From positions 248,001 through 312,000 of the forward strand of contig NZ_JACVBX010000004.1 in the NCBI RefSeq assembly GCF_014852585.1: a stretch of DNA of 64,000 nucleotides, given 5' to 3'. Below, piece after piece: positions 2,988 to 64,000 of the stretch. Position 1 is the stretch's first letter, and each line of letters starts with the position of its first letter. Under the pieces are notes generated by a model, which saw only the letters and a program-made list of their open reading frames with translations, was not told the DNA's origin and searched no databases. Source of the stretch: Pseudomonas sp. PDM18. Lineage in GTDB: Bacteria; Pseudomonadota; Gammaproteobacteria; Pseudomonadales; Pseudomonadaceae. Both the position numbers and the translations under genes were made by a program.

Positions 2988-4757
2988 ATGTCCCTGTTGT
3001 CGTCCCGCCAGCGCAATGCCCTGCGCTTGGCTCGCTCGTTTCTCGCTCCCTATCGCTGGCGCGCCTTCGGCGCACTGCTGGCGCTGTTGTTCACCGCCGC
3101 CATCACCCTGTCCCTGGGGCAGGGCATCCGCCTGCTGGTGGACCAGGGCTTCATCACCCAGTCCGAGCAACTGCTCACCCGCGCCATCGGCATTTTCTTC
3201 CTGCTGGTGCTGTGCCTGGCGGTCGGCACTTTCGTGCGCTTCTACCTGGTGTCGTGGATCGGCGAGCGCTTCGTCGCCGATATCCGTCAGCGCGTGTTCG
3301 ACCATCTGATCGAGCTGCACCCCGGTTTCTACGAGAACAACCGCGCCTCGGAGATCCAGTCGCGGCTGACCGCCGATACCACGCTGCTGCAATCGGTGAT
3401 CGGCTCCTCACTGTCCATGGCGCTACGCAATGTGCTGATGCTGCTGGGCGGGGTAATCCTGATGTTCTTCACCAACGCCAAGCTGACCAGCATCGTGGTT
3501 GCCTCGTTGCCGCTGGTGATCGCGCCGATCCTGCTGTTCGGCCGCCGCGTGCGTAGCCTGTCGCGGCTCAGCCAGGACCGCGTGGCGGACGTCGGCAGCT
3601 ACGTCGGCGAATCCCTCGGCCAGATCAAGACGGTGCAGGCCTACAACCACCAGGCGCAGGATCGCGCGCGCTTCGGCCGCACCGTGGAAGACGCTTTCGA
3701 CACCGCGCGCAAGCGCATCATGCAGCGCTCCTGGCTGGTCAGCGTGGTCATCCTGTTGGTGCTCGGCGCGGTTGGGGTGATGCTCTGGGTCGGCGGCATG
3801 GATGTGATCGCCGGACGCATCAGTCCGGGTGATCTCGCGGCCTTCGTGTTCTACAGCCTGATCGTCGGCATGGCCTTCGGCACGCTGAGCGAAGTGATTG
3901 GGGAGTTGCAGCGTGCGGCCGGTGCCGCCGAGCGCATCGCTGAGCTCTTGCGCGCGCGCAGTGAAATCCATGCCCCCGCCAGCGACCTGCTGCAGCTGCC
4001 GGAGCGGATCAGCGGCAGCATCGAATTGCAGGCCGTGCGTTTCGCCTACCCGTCGCGCCCGGAACAGTGGGCCATCGACGCTATCGACCTGCGCGTAGAA
4101 CCGGGCGAGACCTTGGCGCTGGTCGGCCCGTCGGGTGCCGGCAAGTCCACCCTGTTCGACTTGCTGCTGCGCTTCTACGACCCGCAGCAGGGACGCATCC
4201 TGATCGACGGCCAGCCCATTGCCCAGCTCGACCCGACGGACCTGCGCCGCAGCTTCGCGCTGGTGTCGCAGAACCCGGCGCTGTTCTTCGGCACGGTGGA
4301 AGAGAACATTCGCTACGGCCGCCCTGATGCCAGCGATGGGGAAGTCGAGGCCGCCGCCCGCGCGGCCCATGCCCACGAATTCATCCTACGTCTGCCGCAG
4401 GGCTACCGGACGCATCTGGGGGAAAGCGGCCTGGGCTTGTCCGGCGGCCAGCGCCAACGCCTGGCGATTGCCCGCGCGCTGTTGGTGGATGCGCCTATTC
4501 TGCTGCTCGACGAAGCGACCAGCGCGCTGGATGCCGAGAGCGAACACCTGATCCAGCAGGCGCTGCCGGGACTGATGCGCGACCGCACCACGCTGGTGAT
4601 CGCCCATCGCCTGGCCACGGTGCTAAACGCCGACCGCATTGCGGTGATCGAGCATGGTCGCTTGCTGGCGCTGGGGCGGCACGCCGAGCTGGTGCTCAGC
4701 AATCCGCTGTATGCGCGCCTGGCAGAGTTGCAGTTCGGCCAGGCGGACCACTTTTAG
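2988..4757 (+). CDS. ABC exporter, fused permease/ATPase (MsbA-like)
   Basis: Half-size ABC exporter of 589 residues that would work as a homodimer in the inner membrane. An N-terminal six-helix membrane domain (about 20-310) is followed by a nucleotide-binding domain with Walker A GPSGAGKST (380-388), signature LSGGQ (484-488), Walker B ILLLDEAT (504-511) and the switch His in VIAHRL. The coupling region GQIKTVQAYNHQ resembles lipid and drug exporters, so lipid A/phospholipid or drug efflux is possible; the substrate is unknown. The longer reading frame upstream runs through the small gene on the other strand, so the start was put at ATG 2988 (MSLLSSRQRNALRLARSFLAPY). The TAG stop is the first base triplet of a REP-like repeat. 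Confidence 0.88.
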   Translation: MSLLSSRQRNALRLARSFLAPYRWRAFGALLALLFTAAITLSLGQGIRLLVDQGFITQSEQLLTRAIGIFFLLVLCLAVGTFVRFYLVSWIGERFVADIRQRVFDHLIELHPGFYENNRASEIQSRLTADTTLLQSVIGSSLSMALRNVLMLLGGVILMFFTNAKLTSIVVASLPLVIAPILLFGRRVRSLSRLSQDRVADVGSYVGESLGQIKTVQAYNHQAQDRARFGRTVEDAFDTARKRIMQRSWLVSVVILLVLGAVGVMLWVGGMDVIAGRISPGDLAAFVFYSLIVGMAFGTLSEVIGELQRAAGAAERIAELLRARSEIHAPASDLLQLPERISGSIELQAVRFAYPSRPEQWAIDAIDLRVEPGETLALVGPSGAGKSTLFDLLLRFYDPQQGRILIDGQPIAQLDPTDLRRSFALVSQNPALFFGTVEENIRYGRPDASDGEVEAAARAAHAHEFILRLPQGYRTHLGESGLGLSGGQRQRLAIARALLVDAPILLLDEATSALDAESEHLIQQALPGLMRDRTTLVIAHRLATVLNADRIAVIEHGRLLALGRHAELVLSNPLYARLAELQFGQADHF

Positions 4758-54309: not shown

Positions 54310-54419
54310 GCGAAGGCCGGAATTTCCCTCGGCCGGAAACGGAACCGGAGCGTCTCAGGCGCAGCCAAATGTCGAGAAATCACGCATCATTGAGCCCTTT
54401 TCGACCTTCGGAGCCGTCT

Positions 54420-58352: not shown

Positions 58353-58574
58353 TCAATCCAGCCAGCTATGCCACGCCAAACGGATCGCGCCGTCCTGCAG
58401 GGGCAGTAGGGTCAGGTTGGGTGCCTGGCGCAGGTCGGTGACCAGTTGGCTCCAGGCGGCGGAGTCGTCGCTGGGTTCACGGCGCAGGGTGATGCCGAGG
58501 TTCTTCAGGGTGGTCGGGTCTGCCAGCAGGGCGTTCACGCGGGCGGACAGCTGGTTGTAGGTTGCGGCGTGCAT
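58353..58574 (-). CDS. DUF1654-family protein under a LexA-type box
   Basis: Protein of 73 residues: MHAATYNQLSARVNALLADP, RREPSDDSAAWSQLVTDLRQ and the C-terminal LLPLQDGAIRLAWHSWLD, which fit the Pseudomonas DUF1654 family. Function unknown. The start ATG 58574 is preceded by GGAGGCCTCCC. A perfect 16-bp LexA-type site lies 43 bases upstream, so expression is probably induced by DNA damage. Confidence 0.75.
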   Translation of the reverse strand: MHAATYNQLSARVNALLADPTTLKNLGITLRREPSDDSAAWSQLVTDLRQAPNLTLLPLQDGAIRLAWHSWLD

Positions 58575-58616
58575 GGGAGGCCTCCGGTTCGGGGTGGATG
58601 GAAATACTGTATGTAA

Positions 58617-58632
58617 ATACAGTATTTCTTGT
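58617..58632. promoter_or_regulatory. LexA (SOS) box
   Basis: CTGTATGTAAATACAG fits the proteobacterial LexA consensus CTGT-N8-ACAG perfectly and is 43 bases upstream of the DUF1654 start codon. Confidence 0.85.
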
Positions 58633-58848
58633 AAAGGCCTGGATGATCGTTGGTAGGCTGATTTCTGAAGGACGTGAAATCGGGGGCTCTGGGGCGGTGC
58701 TTGGAGTGATCGTCGGCGTTTGCTCAGCGGCGCAGCCCCTGGGAGCCGTGGGTTTGCGGGGTGTCTTGTTATCGTTCTGAAAATGGAACGCTAGAAGTGA
58801 ATTTTGCCATCTGGTGGATCAAGGGTGTCGAATTTAATCTTTGTTCCA

Positions 58849-58865
58849 TGCAGTGACGCACTGCA
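58849..58865. promoter_or_regulatory. Palindrome upstream of ycaC
   Basis: TGCAGTGACGCACTGCA: perfect 7-base arms around ACG, 60 bases ahead of the ycaC start codon. Candidate operator for an unidentified regulator. Confidence 0.55.
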
Positions 58866-58925
58866 AACGAGTCCAAACCTTCCGGCCCAGCCGGCACCCA
58901 CTGAAAGCAAATCGAGGATTTCACC

Positions 58926-59555
58926 ATGACCAACGCCACCTACAACCGCCTGGACAAAGACAACGCCGCCGTACTGCTGGTCGACCACCAGGCTGGTCTG
59001 CTCTCGCTGGTCCGCGACATCGATCCGGACAAGTTCAAGAACAACGTGCTGGCGCTGGGTGACCTTGCCAAATTCTTCAACCTGCCGACCATCCTCACCA
59101 CCAGCTTCGAAACCGGCCCCAACGGCCCGCTGGTTCCCGAGCTGAAGGCACAGTTCCCGGACGCGCCGTACATCGCCCGTCCCGGCCAGATCAACGCCTG
59201 GGACAACGAAGACTTCGTGAAGGCAGTGAAGGCCACCGGCAAGAAGCAACTGATCATCGCCGGCGTGGTAACCGAGGTTTGCGTGGCGTTCCCGGCGCTG
59301 TCGGCGCTGGCGGAAGGTTTCGATGTGTTCGTGGTGGCGGATGCGTCCGGCACCTTTAACGAGATGACCCGCGACGCCGCCTGGCGCCGGATGGAAGCGG
59401 CCGGTGCGCAGCTGATGACCTGGTTCGGCGTGGCCTGTGAGTTGCACCGCGACTGGCGCAACGATATCGAAGGGCTGGCGGCGCTGTGCTCGAACCACAT
59501 TCCGGATTACCGGAACCTGATGACCAGCTACAACGCGTTTGCTGCTGGCAAGTAA
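58926..59555 (+). CDS. ycaC: YcaC-type isochorismatase-family hydrolase
   Basis: Cysteine hydrolase of 209 residues in the isochorismatase superfamily. The catalytic triad is visible: Asp in VLLVDHQAGLL, Lys in VKAVKATGKKQLIIAGV, and Cys in GVVTEVCVAFPALSA. The C-terminal FGVACELHRDWRNDIEGLAA is typical of YcaC, an octameric enzyme of uncertain substrate. ATG 58926 follows GAGGATTTCACC. A strong terminator lies 16 bases after the stop. Confidence 0.93.
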   Translation: MTNATYNRLDKDNAAVLLVDHQAGLLSLVRDIDPDKFKNNVLALGDLAKFFNLPTILTTSFETGPNGPLVPELKAQFPDAPYIARPGQINAWDNEDFVKAVKATGKKQLIIAGVVTEVCVAFPALSALAEGFDVFVVADASGTFNEMTRDAAWRRMEAAGAQLMTWFGVACELHRDWRNDIEGLAALCSNHIPDYRNLMTSYNAFAAGK

Positions 59556-59570
59556 GCGGTTGCTGAAATG

Positions 59571-59604
59571 AAAACCGGAGCCTCCTTTGGGGGCTCCGGT
59601 TTTT
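59571..59604 (+). terminator. Intrinsic terminator of ycaC
   Basis: AAAACCGGAGCC - loop - GGCTCCGGTTTTT: a 9-bp GC stem extended by A-T pairs, with T-run. The A-run on the other side makes it usable in both directions. Confidence 0.92.
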
Positions 59605-59695
59605 GGCGTTGCGAGTTTGCATGGTGCTCCTACTGGGGAATACCGAGCACCGGAGGGGAAGCAGAGCGATGGGTATTGCTCCGCTCCACACCATC

Positions 59696-60163
59696 CTACG
59701 TCATGCTCTTCGGCCCGAGGCTCAGCTCGGGCCAACTCTGGTATGGCACCCAGGCCACGCCCTGCCACTTCAATACCGGCAACGTCGTCGTCCCTCGCAG
59801 GACCTCGCGTCTCGGCTTGCCGGAATCCACCCGATGCGGGTCCCGCAACGCCGGAATCACATGCAGGGACAACCATTGACGGATGCTGCGGTTCTCCGGG
59901 TGGAAATACAGGATCAGCGCCGCATACACCGCGGACTCGCTGAGGAGTAGTTCATTGACGTAATCGCCGCTGCCATCGCCCACCCGGGCGCGGCGGAATT
60001 GGTCGTCGTTCAGGTTGCGCTCCACGCGTTCGGCCAACCACGGAGCGCCGATCAGCCGGCTCAGGTCGTGGGCGCAGAACCAGCACTGGCCCTCCAGCAG
60101 CACTGCGCGTAGCAGGCGCTTGTGGCGGATGAATTCGGTGGGGATCAGGAACTCTTCAGACAT
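59696..60163 (-). CDS. Bro-N domain (antirepressor-like) protein
   Basis: Protein of 155 residues with a Bro-N-like DNA-binding domain: RAVLLEGQCWFCAHDLSRLI, WLAERVERNL, ELLLSESAVYAALILYFHPE and FRQWLSLHVIPALR-like NRSIRQWLSLHVIPALRDPH. Bro-N proteins are typical of phages, but no phage genes surround this one. The start ATG 60163 overlaps the end of the transposase gene by 8 bases, so the pair is translationally coupled. C-terminal residues WQGVAWVPYQSWPEL are not part of a known domain. Confidence 0.75.
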   Translation of the reverse strand: MSEEFLIPTEFIRHKRLLRAVLLEGQCWFCAHDLSRLIGAPWLAERVERNLNDDQFRRARVGDGSGDYVNELLLSESAVYAALILYFHPENRSIRQWLSLHVIPALRDPHRVDSGKPRREVLRGTTTLPVLKWQGVAWVPYQSWPELSLGPKSMT

Positions 60164-60695
60164 GGCGTACCTCCGCCGCCCGCACATCCAGCGACACATC
60201 CCCCGCCCAGTCTTCGGTGTAAATGCCCTCGGCAACCGCCCGGCGAAAGGTGGAATACGGCCAATCCTTCACCGCCGTCACCAACCCATGTTTCACCGGG
60301 TTGATGTGGATGTAGTCGAAGTGCCGCTGGTAGTCCGTTTCATCACGGATCAGATGTTCCCAATAGCGCGGCTGCCAGATGCCGCGCTGGCTACGCATCT
60401 GTTGCTCGATGCTCCGTGGCTCTCCATGGGGAATGCGCCGCGCGAAACCGGATTTGATGACCTTCCAGCGCGTGGCGAAATCAGCGTCGCCCGGTGGTAG
60501 CGTCCACAGGCAGTGCATGTGTTCGGGCAGCACGATCCAGGCATCGATCTGGAAAGGGTGATTGCGTTTGGCCTGGGCGATGACGCGGCGCAGCAGATTG
60601 ATTTCCTGGGTCAGGAGACTGGAGCGGCGGTCACGTAGCGTGACCGTGAAGAAGTAGGTGCCACCCCGCACCCAGGCGCGTCGGTAGTTTGGCAT
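60156..60695 (-). CDS. rayT: REP-associated tyrosine transposase (RAYT)
   Basis: Y1-type transposase of 179 residues, related to IS200/IS605 TnpA and associated with REP repeats. The HUH motif is His59-Met-His61 in IVLPEHMHCLWTLP; GIWQPRYWEHLIRD (with Tyr111) and YIHINPVKHGLV (with Tyr128) are RAYT blocks, and one of these tyrosines should be the nucleophile. A REP hairpin lies 49 bases upstream of the start. The gene is followed by an overlapping Bro-N gene. It is a domesticated single-copy transposase in most Pseudomonas. Confidence 0.92.
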   Translation of the reverse strand: MPNYRRAWVRGGTYFFTVTLRDRRSSLLTQEINLLRRVIAQAKRNHPFQIDAWIVLPEHMHCLWTLPPGDADFATRWKVIKSGFARRIPHGEPRSIEQQMRSQRGIWQPRYWEHLIRDETDYQRHFDYIHINPVKHGLVTAVKDWPYSTFRRAVAEGIYTEDWAGDVSLDVRAAEVRHV

Positions 60696-60743
60696 TGGGT
60701 CCCTCCGAGCTCGGTTGGAGTCTGGAGGGTACCTTGGGGATTC

Positions 60744-60774
60744 GGCGGATAACGCGGGGCGTTATTCGCCCTAC
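60744..60774. repeat. REP element upstream of the RAYT gene
   Basis: GGCGGATAACGC - GGG - GCGTTATTCGCC then CTAC: same class as the copies at 27819-27894. A partial inverted copy, GTAGGGCA at 60793-60800, follows, after which base composition turns AT-rich. Confidence 0.85.
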
Positions 60775-60815
60775 AGGAATTTCAGCCTCTGCGTAGGGCA
60801 GAACTTGGGATGAGC

Positions 60816-61469
60816 TCAATTTTCTTGTATAGATAGGATGCGCTTTATAAGATTTTTTGCGTCTTCGGAATTTCCAATGGCCTGTGCTATTGCAACTAAT
60901 TCGACGAGAAGCCCATCTGTGTTGTGGTGTAGTATTTTTTTCTCTATTTTCCCTAGTCGAGAAATTAGTTTTTCTTCGGTCTTTCGCTCTTTTGTAGTTA
61001 AATGCACTCCTCCCTTTATGTTGGCTATATATTTTATAACTTCTCTTCTATTGAACTCCTTCCCGTCTACTACTCCGGATAAGGATGAGAGTAATTCGGT
61101 TATGGTAAATTTTCTGTCGAAAGGATATCCGTTTTCACGAATAGGAGGGGGTGGATTATTTCCTACAGGGGTGGAGCCTTTGTTTAGAATTGAACATGCG
61201 GAGTAGATTCCCCGAAAATTTGCCCCTCCTGCCAGTGCGTAAATTACTTTGTCCTTGTCGTTTCCTAATAATGCCGAGAGATCGACTGCAATTGCGGTAG
61301 GTTGAGCTGGTTCGCCTATAGCTCTCCAGGCGTTACCGTATGCGTTTTCCACTAATAATCTTCTAAGGACCGCCGAACCTCTACGTATCTCTGCGTTAGA
61401 TATTTCTGGACCCCATTGGAAAAGATATTCCAAATCTTCCGCAACAGTTATTAGTGCATCTCTATCCAT
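60816..61469 (-). CDS. AT-rich orphan protein, unknown function
   Basis: Protein of 217 residues with no recognised family. Predicted mostly helical: MDRDALITVAEDLEYLFQWG, a middle segment DLSALLGNDKDKVIYALAGG, a Pro-rich break (NNPPPPIRENG), and a C-terminal half rich in Lys/Glu (LTTKERKTEEKLISRLGKIE) that may form a coiled coil, ending LIKRILSIQEN. No signal peptide or membrane segment. The DNA is strikingly AT-rich compared with the rest of the window and codons end mostly in A or T, indicating recent transfer. Ribosome site weak (GCGAGAA). A defence or stress role is possible but only by analogy. Confidence 0.7.
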   Translation of the reverse strand: MDRDALITVAEDLEYLFQWGPEISNAEIRRGSAVLRRLLVENAYGNAWRAIGEPAQPTAIAVDLSALLGNDKDKVIYALAGGANFRGIYSACSILNKGSTPVGNNPPPPIRENGYPFDRKFTITELLSSLSGVVDGKEFNRREVIKYIANIKGGVHLTTKERKTEEKLISRLGKIEKKILHHNTDGLLVELVAIAQAIGNSEDAKNLIKRILSIQEN

Positions 61470-61581
61470 TTTGTTTCTCGCTAAATTATTCTGGACTTTG
61501 CGCGCTTGTCTTGATTGTGGGTGTTAAAATTCGGTGAGTCTAGAGCTGGGTGCCGTATTTTCGTTTCATATTAAAGATAAC

Positions 61582-61605
61582 AAAAAGCCCCGCACTAGGC
61601 GGGGC
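61582..61605 (-). terminator. Intrinsic terminator of nrdAB
   Basis: On the minus strand GCCCCGC - loop CTAGT - GCGGGGC followed by five T. It lies about 90 bases after the nrdB stop and separates nrdB from the AT-rich gene. Confidence 0.88.
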
Positions 61606-61693
61606 TCTTCGCTTTCTAATCACTGCCCCAACATTCCATTTCGGGTTACAGCGTTTCTAATGGTCTTGACTTGCGGTGGTGCTACTACTTCCG

Positions 61694-62941
61694 TCAGTCC
61701 CAGCTCAGCGCGCCGCCGGTCTGGTACTCGATCACGCGGGTCTCGAAGAAGTTCTTCTCTTTCTTCAAGTCCATGATTTCGCTCATCCACGGGAACGGGT
61801 TGCTGGTGCCCGGGTATTCCTCTTTGAGGCCGATCTGGGTCAGGCGGCGGTTGGCGATGAACTTGAGGTAGTCCTCCATCATCGCCGCGTTCATGCCCAG
61901 CACGCCGCGCGGCATGGTGTCGCGAGCGTATTCGATCTCCAGCTGGGTGCCCTGGAGGATCATCTGGGTGGCCTCGTCCTTCATCTGGGCATCCCACAGG
62001 TGCGGGTTTTCGATCTTGATCTGGTTGATCACGTCGATGCCGAAGTTCAGGTGCATGGATTCGTCGCGCAGGATGTACTGGAACTGCTCGGCGGTGCCGG
62101 TCATCTTGTTGCGGCGGCCCATGGAGAGGATCTGGGTGAAGCCGCAGTAGAAGAAGATGCCTTCCAGAACGCAGTAGTAGGCGATCAGGTTGCGCAGGAA
62201 CTGGCGGTCGGTCTCAGGCGTTCCGGTTTCGAACTTCGGATCGGAGATCGAGCGGGTGTACTTCAGGCCCCAGGACGCTTTCTTCGCGACGCTCGGGATC
62301 TCGTGGTACATGTTGAAGATTTCGCCCTCGTCCATGCCCAGCGACTCGATGCAGTACTGGTAGGCGTGGGTGTGGATCGCTTCCTCGAAGGCCTGGCGCA
62401 GGATGTACTGGCGGCACTCGGGGTTGGTGATCAGGCGGTAGACGGCCAGCACCAGGTTGTTGGCGACCAGGGAGTCGGCGGTGGAGAAGAAGCCGAGGTT
62501 GCGCATGACGATTCGGCGCTCGTCTTCGCTGAGGCCGTCCTTGCTCTTCCACAGGGCAATGTCGGCGTTCATGTTCACTTCCTGGGGCATCCAGTGGTTG
62601 GCGCAACCATCCAGATACTTCTGCCAGGCCCAGTCGTACTTGAAGGGTACGAGCTGGTTGAGGTCGGCGCGGGCGTTGATCATCTGCTTGTCGCCGACTT
62701 GTACGCGGGCGGCAGAGCCTTCGAGATCGTCCAGGCCTTCCTGGATGTCCAGGGCGTCGAGGGCCTGCTTGGCGCGGGCGACGGCGTCGGAGTCGTCGGC
62801 GGATACAGCGCGCGCTTCTTCGACGGAGCCGGCGGCGTCGGCGTCGAGTTTGTCAGCGTTCTGCGCAGCGGCCTGGGCGACGGCCGGGGCGGCCTTGGCT
62901 TCGGTGGCGTCTTCTTTGTCGAATTCGTCCCAGCTCAGCAT
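61694..62941 (-). CDS. nrdB: Class Ia ribonucleotide reductase, beta subunit
   Basis: Small subunit of aerobic ribonucleotide reductase, 415 residues, carrying the diiron-tyrosyl radical cofactor. Ferritin-like core motifs are visible: [20 protein letters not shown] and [18 protein letters not shown] with Fe-ligand Glu/His, and [18 protein letters not shown]. Compared with E. coli NrdB (about 375 residues) it has an N-terminal extension of about 60 residues rich in Ala, Asp and Glu. The C-terminus (GGALSWD) would bind NrdA. It follows nrdA after a 345-base gap on the same strand. Confidence 0.96.
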
Positions 62942-63286
62942 GGGTCCTCTCCTGTTCTGGATGGCCGTTCTAGGGCGGCCTGATGTCTGGTGGCGTGTGG
63001 TGCACGCTAAGAGCTTGTGCGTCTTCCGTCCTGCGCGGTGCGCGGCGGAGGAGGCTGTTGTTCGGTCGGGCTGAGGGGCCTTGAAGAGCCCCTCTCGCTA
63101 ACCCTGGCTTCGCGCCCCGCTCCGAAGGGAGAGGGGACTTTGAAGCTGCGGAGTTCTGGCGGTGCCTCGGAGCGAGGCCGCGCTAGGCGCCTGGTAGGTC
63201 GGAGCCCCTGAGCGTACGACTGTACGTGATGGGGGCCGACCTGCCGGGCAACGACGCGCGGACCGTTCCGAGGACCGCTTACCCCC
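62942..63286. other. nrdA-nrdB intergenic region with repeats and a long hairpin
   Basis: 345 bases without a credible gene. Around 63090-63134 CCCCTCTCGCTAACCCT and GGGAGAGGGG match the dispersed repeat also seen at 21704. At 63193-63245 there is a long imperfect hairpin. The rest shows no motif I recognise. Short frames here have no ribosome site or known product. Confidence 0.7.
63193..63245. repeat. Long hairpin between nrdA and nrdB
   Basis: GGTAGGTCGGAGCCCC (63193-63208) pairs with GGGGGCCGACCTGCC (63231-63245) with one bulge and one G-U; inside it CGTAC (63213-63217) pairs with GTACG (63222-63226). Either an RNA structure separating the two cistrons or a repeat unit. Confidence 0.6.
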
Positions 63287-64000
63287 TTATTGGCAGGCTT
63301 CGCAATCAGGATTGTCGATGCTGCAGGCTTGCGGAACCGGAGCCGGCTGCGGCTCGGCAGCAGCGGCTTGCAGGCCTTCGTTGCCACCGGCCGACACGGC
63401 GTTGAGCTTGCCGGTGTTGATGGTGGACTTCTCGGTGCTGGTAGCGGCCAGTGCACGGAGGTAGTAGGTGGTCTTCAGACCACGGAACCAGGCCATGCGG
63501 TAGGTCACGTCCAGCTTCTTGCCCGAGGCGCCGGCGATGTAGAGGTTCAGGGACTGGGCCTGATCGATCCACTTCTGGCGGCGGCTGGCGGCGTCGACGA
63601 TCCACTTGGTCTCGACTTCGAAGGCGGTGGCGTACAGGTCTTTCAGGTCTTGCGGGATGCGCTCGATCTGCTGCACGGAGCCGTCGTAGTACTTCAGGTC
63701 GTTGACCATGACCGGGTCCCACAGGCCGCGCACTTTCAGGTCGCGAACCAGGTAGGGGTTGATCACGGTGAACTCGCCGGAGAGGTTCGATTTCACGTAC
63801 AGGTTCTGGTAGGTCGGCTCGATGGACTGCGATACGCCGGTGATGTTGGCGATGGTCGCGGTCGGCGCGATGGCCATGATGTTCGAGTTACGGATGCCTT
63901 TCTGTACGCGGGCACGTACCGGAGCCCAGTCGAGGGATTCGGTCAGGTCGACGTCGATGTACTTCTGGCCACGGGCTTCGATGAGGATCTGCTGGGAGTC
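63287..64000 (-). CDS. nrdA: Class Ia ribonucleotide reductase, alpha subunit (3' part)
   Basis: C-terminal part (about 237 residues) of the large subunit; the gene continues beyond the window. The frame is open to the edge and reads VRARVQKGIRNSNIMAIAPT and then ATIANITGVSQSIEPTYQNL, the conserved substrate/effector region of NrdA. The last residues SIDNPDCEACQ carry the C-terminal Cys-x2-Cys redox pair that passes electrons from thioredoxin. A Pro/Ala-rich linker precedes it. nrdB follows on the same strand. Confidence 0.95.
   Translation of the reverse strand, partial: DSQQILIEARGQKYIDVDLTESLDWAPVRARVQKGIRNSNIMAIAPTATIANITGVSQSIEPTYQNLYVKSNLSGEFTVINPYLVRDLKVRGLWDPVMVNDLKYYDGSVQQIERIPQDLKDLYATAFEVETKWIVDAASRRQKWIDQAQSLNLYIAGASGKKLDVTYRMAWFRGLKTTYYLRALAATSTEKSTINTGKLNAVSAGGNEGLQAAAAEPQPAPVPQACSIDNPDCEACQ

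Follow-up and report, generated by a model that had tools for sequence, protein, structure and literature searches.

cDHS1 and cDHS2 are core defence hotspots of Pseudomonas aeruginosa with median sizes of 26 and 6 kb, as given in the accessible part of PMC10250203. Integron cassettes are described, in the part of PMC12444791 that we consulted, as stores of phage defence. nrdB is absent from the accessible text of PMC10250203, and the string "nrd" is absent from that of PMC12629846, which concerns defence hotspots on Pseudomonas genomic islands. The literature searched names no nrdB or nrdAB defence slot among the matches listed; this is weak evidence of novelty, since subscription papers and bioRxiv lie largely outside it.

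The locus considered here is an AT-rich gene, with its neighbours, in the window, by which we mean the whole 64-kb stretch of DNA that was analysed. The names nrdA and nrdB for the operon genes are presumptive. The relevant features are as follows.

59696..60163, minus strand: Bro-N-like gene that anchors the slot on the right (E 0.0067 to Pfam Bro-N, which is below the cut-off)
60156..60695, minus strand: rayT, REP-associated tyrosine transposase (NF047646, 202.2 bits against a curated cut-off of 80, E 3.2e-60)
60744..60774, minus strand: complete REP element, old right flank (pattern scan; present at empty sites too)
60793..60800, plus strand: GTAGGGCA, half-REP edge, read in the sequence
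60797..61582, no strand: foreign segment of the slot, approximate (homology limits against genus members)
60816..61469, minus strand: AT-rich gene carried as cargo; its 217-aa product belongs to an unnamed protein family (ORF, composition, relatives and structure model)
61485..61512, minus strand: weak promoter-like site upstream of the cargo gene (1 found against a shuffle mean of 1.7, within chance)
61579..61613, minus strand: hairpin of the nrdAB terminator, marking the slot's left edge (15 pairs, conserved in relatives)
61694..62941, minus strand: nrdB, left anchor of the slot (name presumptive; all 25 genus genomes gave a match to the 3' part)

The first-pass annotation had described an AT-rich gene in GC-rich surroundings, and this was confirmed. 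The cargo gene (ATG start, 217 codons in the ORF list) has a GC content of 0.414 and a GC3 of 0.330, compared with 0.619 and 0.894 for nrdB and 0.613 and 0.756 for rayT. Only three 500-base stretches of the window (step 250) fall below 50% GC, and all of them overlap this gene. It lies between the nrdAB terminator and the REP beside rayT, and is present as a single copy in its own genome. On the nrdB side, homology with genus members stops approximately 97 to 120 bp past the nrdB stop codon, and it is back at or near 60797 in the genus loci that have rayT. The annotation had allowed that the same gene might be present in all close relatives; it was found in none of the 24 other genus genomes and in none of the 397 other family genomes sampled, a set that overlaps with those 24. 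Composition and absence from the genus together support the view of a lone foreign gene, and no result pointed to a plain housekeeping protein. Rfam gave no match on 58500-64000; a megablast against E. coli genomes also gave none and was uninformative.

The elements that the annotation had placed beside the gene were recovered. Past the cargo gene, in its direction, come GTAGGGCA (at 60793, as claimed), the full REP, rayT with its score above the family cut-off, and the Bro-N-like gene. The REP pattern, which was built from the REP at 60744-60774 itself together with general knowledge of such elements, gave 0 matches in 100 shuffles of the window, and the REP has 5 exact copies in the genome. 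On the other side, a terminator consensus scan did no better than chance (2 found against a shuffle mean of 2.7); despite this, the 15-pair hairpin at 61613-61579 is kept in relatives. We also noted that the non-coding DNA separating nrdB from the cargo gene (61582-61693) is unusually conserved, with 80 of 124 alignment columns invariant across 17 genus loci and no Rfam match.

Comparison of the DNA behind nrdB was carried out for all 25 genomes of the genus set, some loci being shortened by contig ends. The first 83 to 120 bp behind nrdB, with the terminator at their end, resembled the window in 18 of the 24 other loci. No match to this stretch was obtained in L068, L070, L072, L074, L080 and L084, and other hairpins lie behind nrdB in L068, L072 and L074. 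After the terminator, homology breaks off and the genus loci carry different DNA. The Bro-N-like region was matched in 18 of the 24 other loci and the rayT block was found in 7 of 25 (own included), with parts of it in L071 and L082. In L073, whose downstream flank is closest to that of the window, the slot holds a SIR2/ThsA-like gene. The proposal that different cargo genes might occupy the rayT-nrdB gap across strains was therefore borne out, and the locus has the conserved flanks and the differing cargo in related genomes by which a chromosomal hotspot is recognised.

The REP junction did not hold up as the defining edge of the insertion. Two empty sites (L069 and L083) have the REP/rayT edge, which lies 43 and 49 bp beyond the point where the left match ends, and most genus loci lack the rayT block. 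Because it borders empty sites too, the REP/rayT edge is best read as an old flank and, as far as the comparison shows, would not be the inserter. The nrdAB terminator is the more constant edge of the slot.

In order to compare the gaps of the region, inserts of at least 400 bp were counted in the 20 genus loci longer than 10 kb (own excluded). The gap behind nrdB contained 13 inserts in 8 clusters with a median GC of 0.44. The gap behind the Bro-N-like gene contained 10 inserts in 5 clusters, and the remaining gaps fewer; median GC in the gaps other than that of nrdB was 0.59 to 0.67. The presence of inserts in several gaps suggests that the region is plastic in general and that AT-rich cargo is the mark of the nrdB gap. 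A separate 1.6-kb GC-rich insert, forming one cluster, occurs in 5 of these 20 loci at the place corresponding to approximately 54311-54337 of the window, which is without it.

Across the family, nrdB was matched in 123 of 148 genomes (E 1e-50). Outside the genus, 40 of 105 loci were sampled; the choice was non-random and mainly took those ranked highest by identity. A first ORF of AT-rich composition (90 aa or more, GC below 0.53, start less than 420 nt past the nrdB stop) was present close behind nrdB in 44 of 65 loci, comprising 18 of 25 in the genus and 26 of 40 outside it; the other 21 lacked one. All but two of the 44 are on the strand of nrdB, and only 7 related pairs were found among the 44 cargo proteins (E 1e-5). 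Five more AT-rich ORFs (GC below 0.50, at least 120 aa) were located at a greater distance from nrdB in the stretches examined. The existence of a compact slot for cargo right after the nrdAB terminator is well supported. In two different genera (L082 and L121) the slot holds a RelA/SpoT-type protein that is 81% identical, suggesting that cargo has been transferred from one genus to another here.

The occupants are mostly unrelated to one another and include NACHT, SIR2, DarTG, dGTPase, RelA/SpoT, AIPR, TIR/SEFIR and Pycsar-type proteins, among others. The PADLOC scan of the genus left out L071 and one ORF of L070, and L077 was searched with Pfam alone, without a match. Cargo matches at E <= 1e-3 were obtained as follows, with one weaker match given last.

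L061: HEC-07
L064: PDC-S60 (NACHT by Pfam)
L066: PDC-M36A
L070, third gene: methyltransferase
L073: ThsA/SIR2
L074: DarT and DarG
L075: PDC-M28B, over a short stretch
L076: dGTPase
L078: methyltransferase and DpdB-like
L082: PDC-S33
L067: NACHT by Pfam (PADLOC at 0.002 only)

Matches at E <= 1e-3 thus occur in 10 of the 15 genus loci scanned, a raw count made without a matched control set, so that enrichment of the slot cargo in defence genes is an impression and not a measurement. At this cut-off there were none in 5 of the 15, and at 0.01 none in L062 (whose cargo is a DUF6216 protein), L063, L065 and L079. For the 26 first proteins from outside the genus, the Pfam result (E 0.001) consists of counts per family, unassigned to individual proteins: AAA_21 in 3, AIPR in 2, and TIR_2, SEFIR, RelA_SpoT, PycTM, NACHT, HD, DUF4062 and 5'-nucleotidase in one each. 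With PADLOC, the best 25 of 154 families each match 3 of these proteins, and the HEC-01A, AriA, Old and GajA models are among them.

Two RNA families were noted in the same loci. sRNA-Xcc1 (RF02221) scored above the gathering threshold in 3 of 4 loci scanned (L073 15159-15241, minus; L079 15688-15770, minus; L076 3218-3300, plus). Its position is the right-hand border of the slot, before the Bro-N-like gene, and similar sequence was seen by eye in further loci. This RNA is known from Xanthomonas integron cassettes, according to the part of PMC12444791 consulted. L061 contains two TwoAYGGAY RNA matches (RF01731) above the gathering score, at 3316-3442 (minus) and 3632-3754 (plus), which face each other.

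The 217-aa protein itself had no match in NCBIfam or PADLOC-DB 2.0.0, and searches against PHROGs, Pfam and PDB gave only chance-level or below-cut-off matches. Single-sequence searches of the plasmids, phages, genome_contigs and viral_contigs collections revealed no relative. A search of class genomes gave matches in 60 of 369 at E <= 0.5 (own included); inspection covered L002, L004, L008, L012 and L018, which were judged to be chance. A presumed motif, Y-V/I-A-N-K-x-G-G-x-H, was then scanned in viral contigs. Four matches were obtained, and two of these are full-length relatives (E 3e-18 and 4e-13 by BLASTP, for a set database size of 1e6); the motif matches in L087 and L089 were not counted as relatives. 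A second variant of the motif found nothing, and a search with the enlarged alignment returned the same two viral loci.

The alignment of the viral relatives led to homologues in Synechococcus sp. SynAce01, Haliea sp., Pleionea sediminis and a MAG, with identities in the alignment of 62%, 64%, 53% and 36%, respectively. A phylum search yielded, besides the own genome, 4 of 397 genomes at E 0.001. Two were accepted as more distant members (L097 and L098, 20 and 17% identity); L099 was left out because only its C-terminal part matched, and L100 because it looked like chance. The description of the gene as an orphan therefore no longer applies. By this count the family is rare. No further relative was found in 289 genomes of the class of G1065 or in 312 class genomes, and searches of plasmids with five of the relatives were also negative. 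Its members come from distant bacteria and from viral contigs, and none of the libraries searched gives the family a name. A family profile matched PDB sequences at chance level, and none of the nine members (the protein and eight aligned relatives) matched PADLOC at E 0.1.

The relatives occur in several settings. Two attC-like sites (L090 6885-6985 and 7640-7729, scores 13.0 and 12.1) flank the Synechococcus relative in a simple scan of our own at threshold 12, for which 5 shuffles gave a mean of 0.2 hits on that strand; this relative is apparently an integron cassette. An integron array suspected at the Pleionea relative (L092) was not supported. The next gene after the Synechococcus relative encodes a 5'-nucleotidase (PF06189; L090 7737-8759, plus), and a protein of the same Pfam family is 1 of the 26 outside-genus slot occupants, by sequence that of L109. 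The two viral relatives lie among genes read by eye as phage type, the L097/L142 relative is near a reverse transcriptase and, by eye, a recombinase, and the L098 relative adjoins an AlbA_2 gene. Directly behind the 36% relative is a gene (L093 7695-8579, plus) that weakly matches a TIR-type model (CAP12-PCTIR_TIR at E 0.02, short of the cut-off) and whose product is a possible partner of that relative. These settings suggest that the family travels as single-gene cargo.

Thirteen columns are invariant in the nine sequences: L13, R36, L38, G82, P116, G136, I145, Y147, A149, N150, G153, G154 and H156. The likely working site would be the cluster of Y147, A149, N150, G153, G154 and H156 together with R36. 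HEPN-type proteins, which combine the HEPN fold with an R-x4-6-H motif, were considered for the 217-aa protein.

We lean towards the explanation that the gene occupies a compact defence slot behind nrdAB and probably encodes an uncharacterised single-gene anti-phage protein. The annotation had called this a classic place for a defence or fitness gene; many occupants in relatives do match defence families, and for the 217-aa protein a defence role is the best bet, inferred from its location. It may act alone, harming the infected cell or blocking it. Occupants would be swapped by homologous recombination in the conserved flanks, a route suggested by the fact that no integrase was seen with the cargo read.

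Many occupants begin a few tens of bases past the terminator and may be transcribed by read-through from nrdAB. Among 32 co-directional cargo genes with a recognised terminator, 25 have their first in-frame start no more than 40 nt past the T tract, a count that is biased by 14 whose frame is open through the terminator; of the other 18, 11 start within this distance. So short a distance leaves little room for a promoter, which makes read-through likely. The window gene starts 112 nt past the T tract, so read-through is not needed, and this leader may carry a promoter of its own. If read-through from nrdAB does drive expression, immune-gene dosage would be tied to DNA-precursor metabolism.

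The rival that survives best, although we regard it as rather unlikely, is that the slot is real and the occupant is a passenger unconnected with defence (metabolic, regulatory or neutral) in a harmless gap between a terminator and the promoter that follows. The gap is intergenic on both sides, the slot also houses a 5'-nucleotidase and proteins of unknown kind, and no defence model matches the 217-aa protein or its relatives. The many occupants that match defence families count against it, as does the occurrence of this protein family in mobile settings and distant phyla. An origin in a phage, with the gene serving the phage in superinfection exclusion or counter-defence before being left in the chromosome, is improbable. 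It would account for the relatives in two viral contigs and for the best viral-library structural match of the modelled protein, an unnamed protein at E 1.6e-4; against this, no phage-type genes were seen beside the window gene, the phage collection held no match to its product, and the nearest relatives (53 to 64%) are in chromosomal contigs, one of them in a cassette setting. That the adjacent rayT/REP system inserted the gene, or that it entered a secondary site as an integron cassette, is very improbable: the REP edge and rayT adjoin the segment and one relative is flanked by attC-like sites, but that edge is also present where the slot is empty and rayT is in few genus loci, and no attC-like site was found in 59600-62000 of the window (both strands, threshold 12) or, at the stricter threshold 13, in the initial 4.2 kb of the 65 loci; this second scan would pass only one of the two Synechococcus sites and so can miss sites.

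A wider form of the favoured explanation, the defence slot behind nrdAB, is speculative and on balance doubtful. It holds that the slot is a family-wide immune site of mostly promoterless genes living on read-through, with expression tuned by the demand for DNA precursors, as in phage replication, and that the 217-aa protein is the first of a new anti-phage family whose fold is absent from the PDB. For small defence candidates, the slot offers a simple rule, namely the first gene behind nrdB. PADLOC matches nothing at E 0.01 for the window gene or for the cargo of L062, L063, L065 and L079, so the slot already supplies a short list of candidates.

With respect to known systems, a complete REP and rayT adjoin the segment as in RAYT/REP elements, but these elements border empty sites as well, and many occupied sites lack them. 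Single-gene cargo is shared with the phage-defence cassettes of integrons (PMC12444791, part consulted), and one relative is apparently such a cassette, but the window gene, unlike those cassettes, has no attC-like site that we could find. As described in the accessible part of PMC12629846, the defence hotspots of Pseudomonas genomic islands are likewise discrete sites with exchangeable defence cargo and, unlike the nrdAB slot, are located on mobile islands. There is also a likeness in layout to cDHS1 and cDHS2, which, in the part of PMC10250203 consulted, also have fixed core flanks, variable cargo of lower GC, many defence systems and no obligatory mobile element. Those hotspots are large and have other flanks, whereas the nrdAB slot mostly holds one or two genes behind a single terminator.
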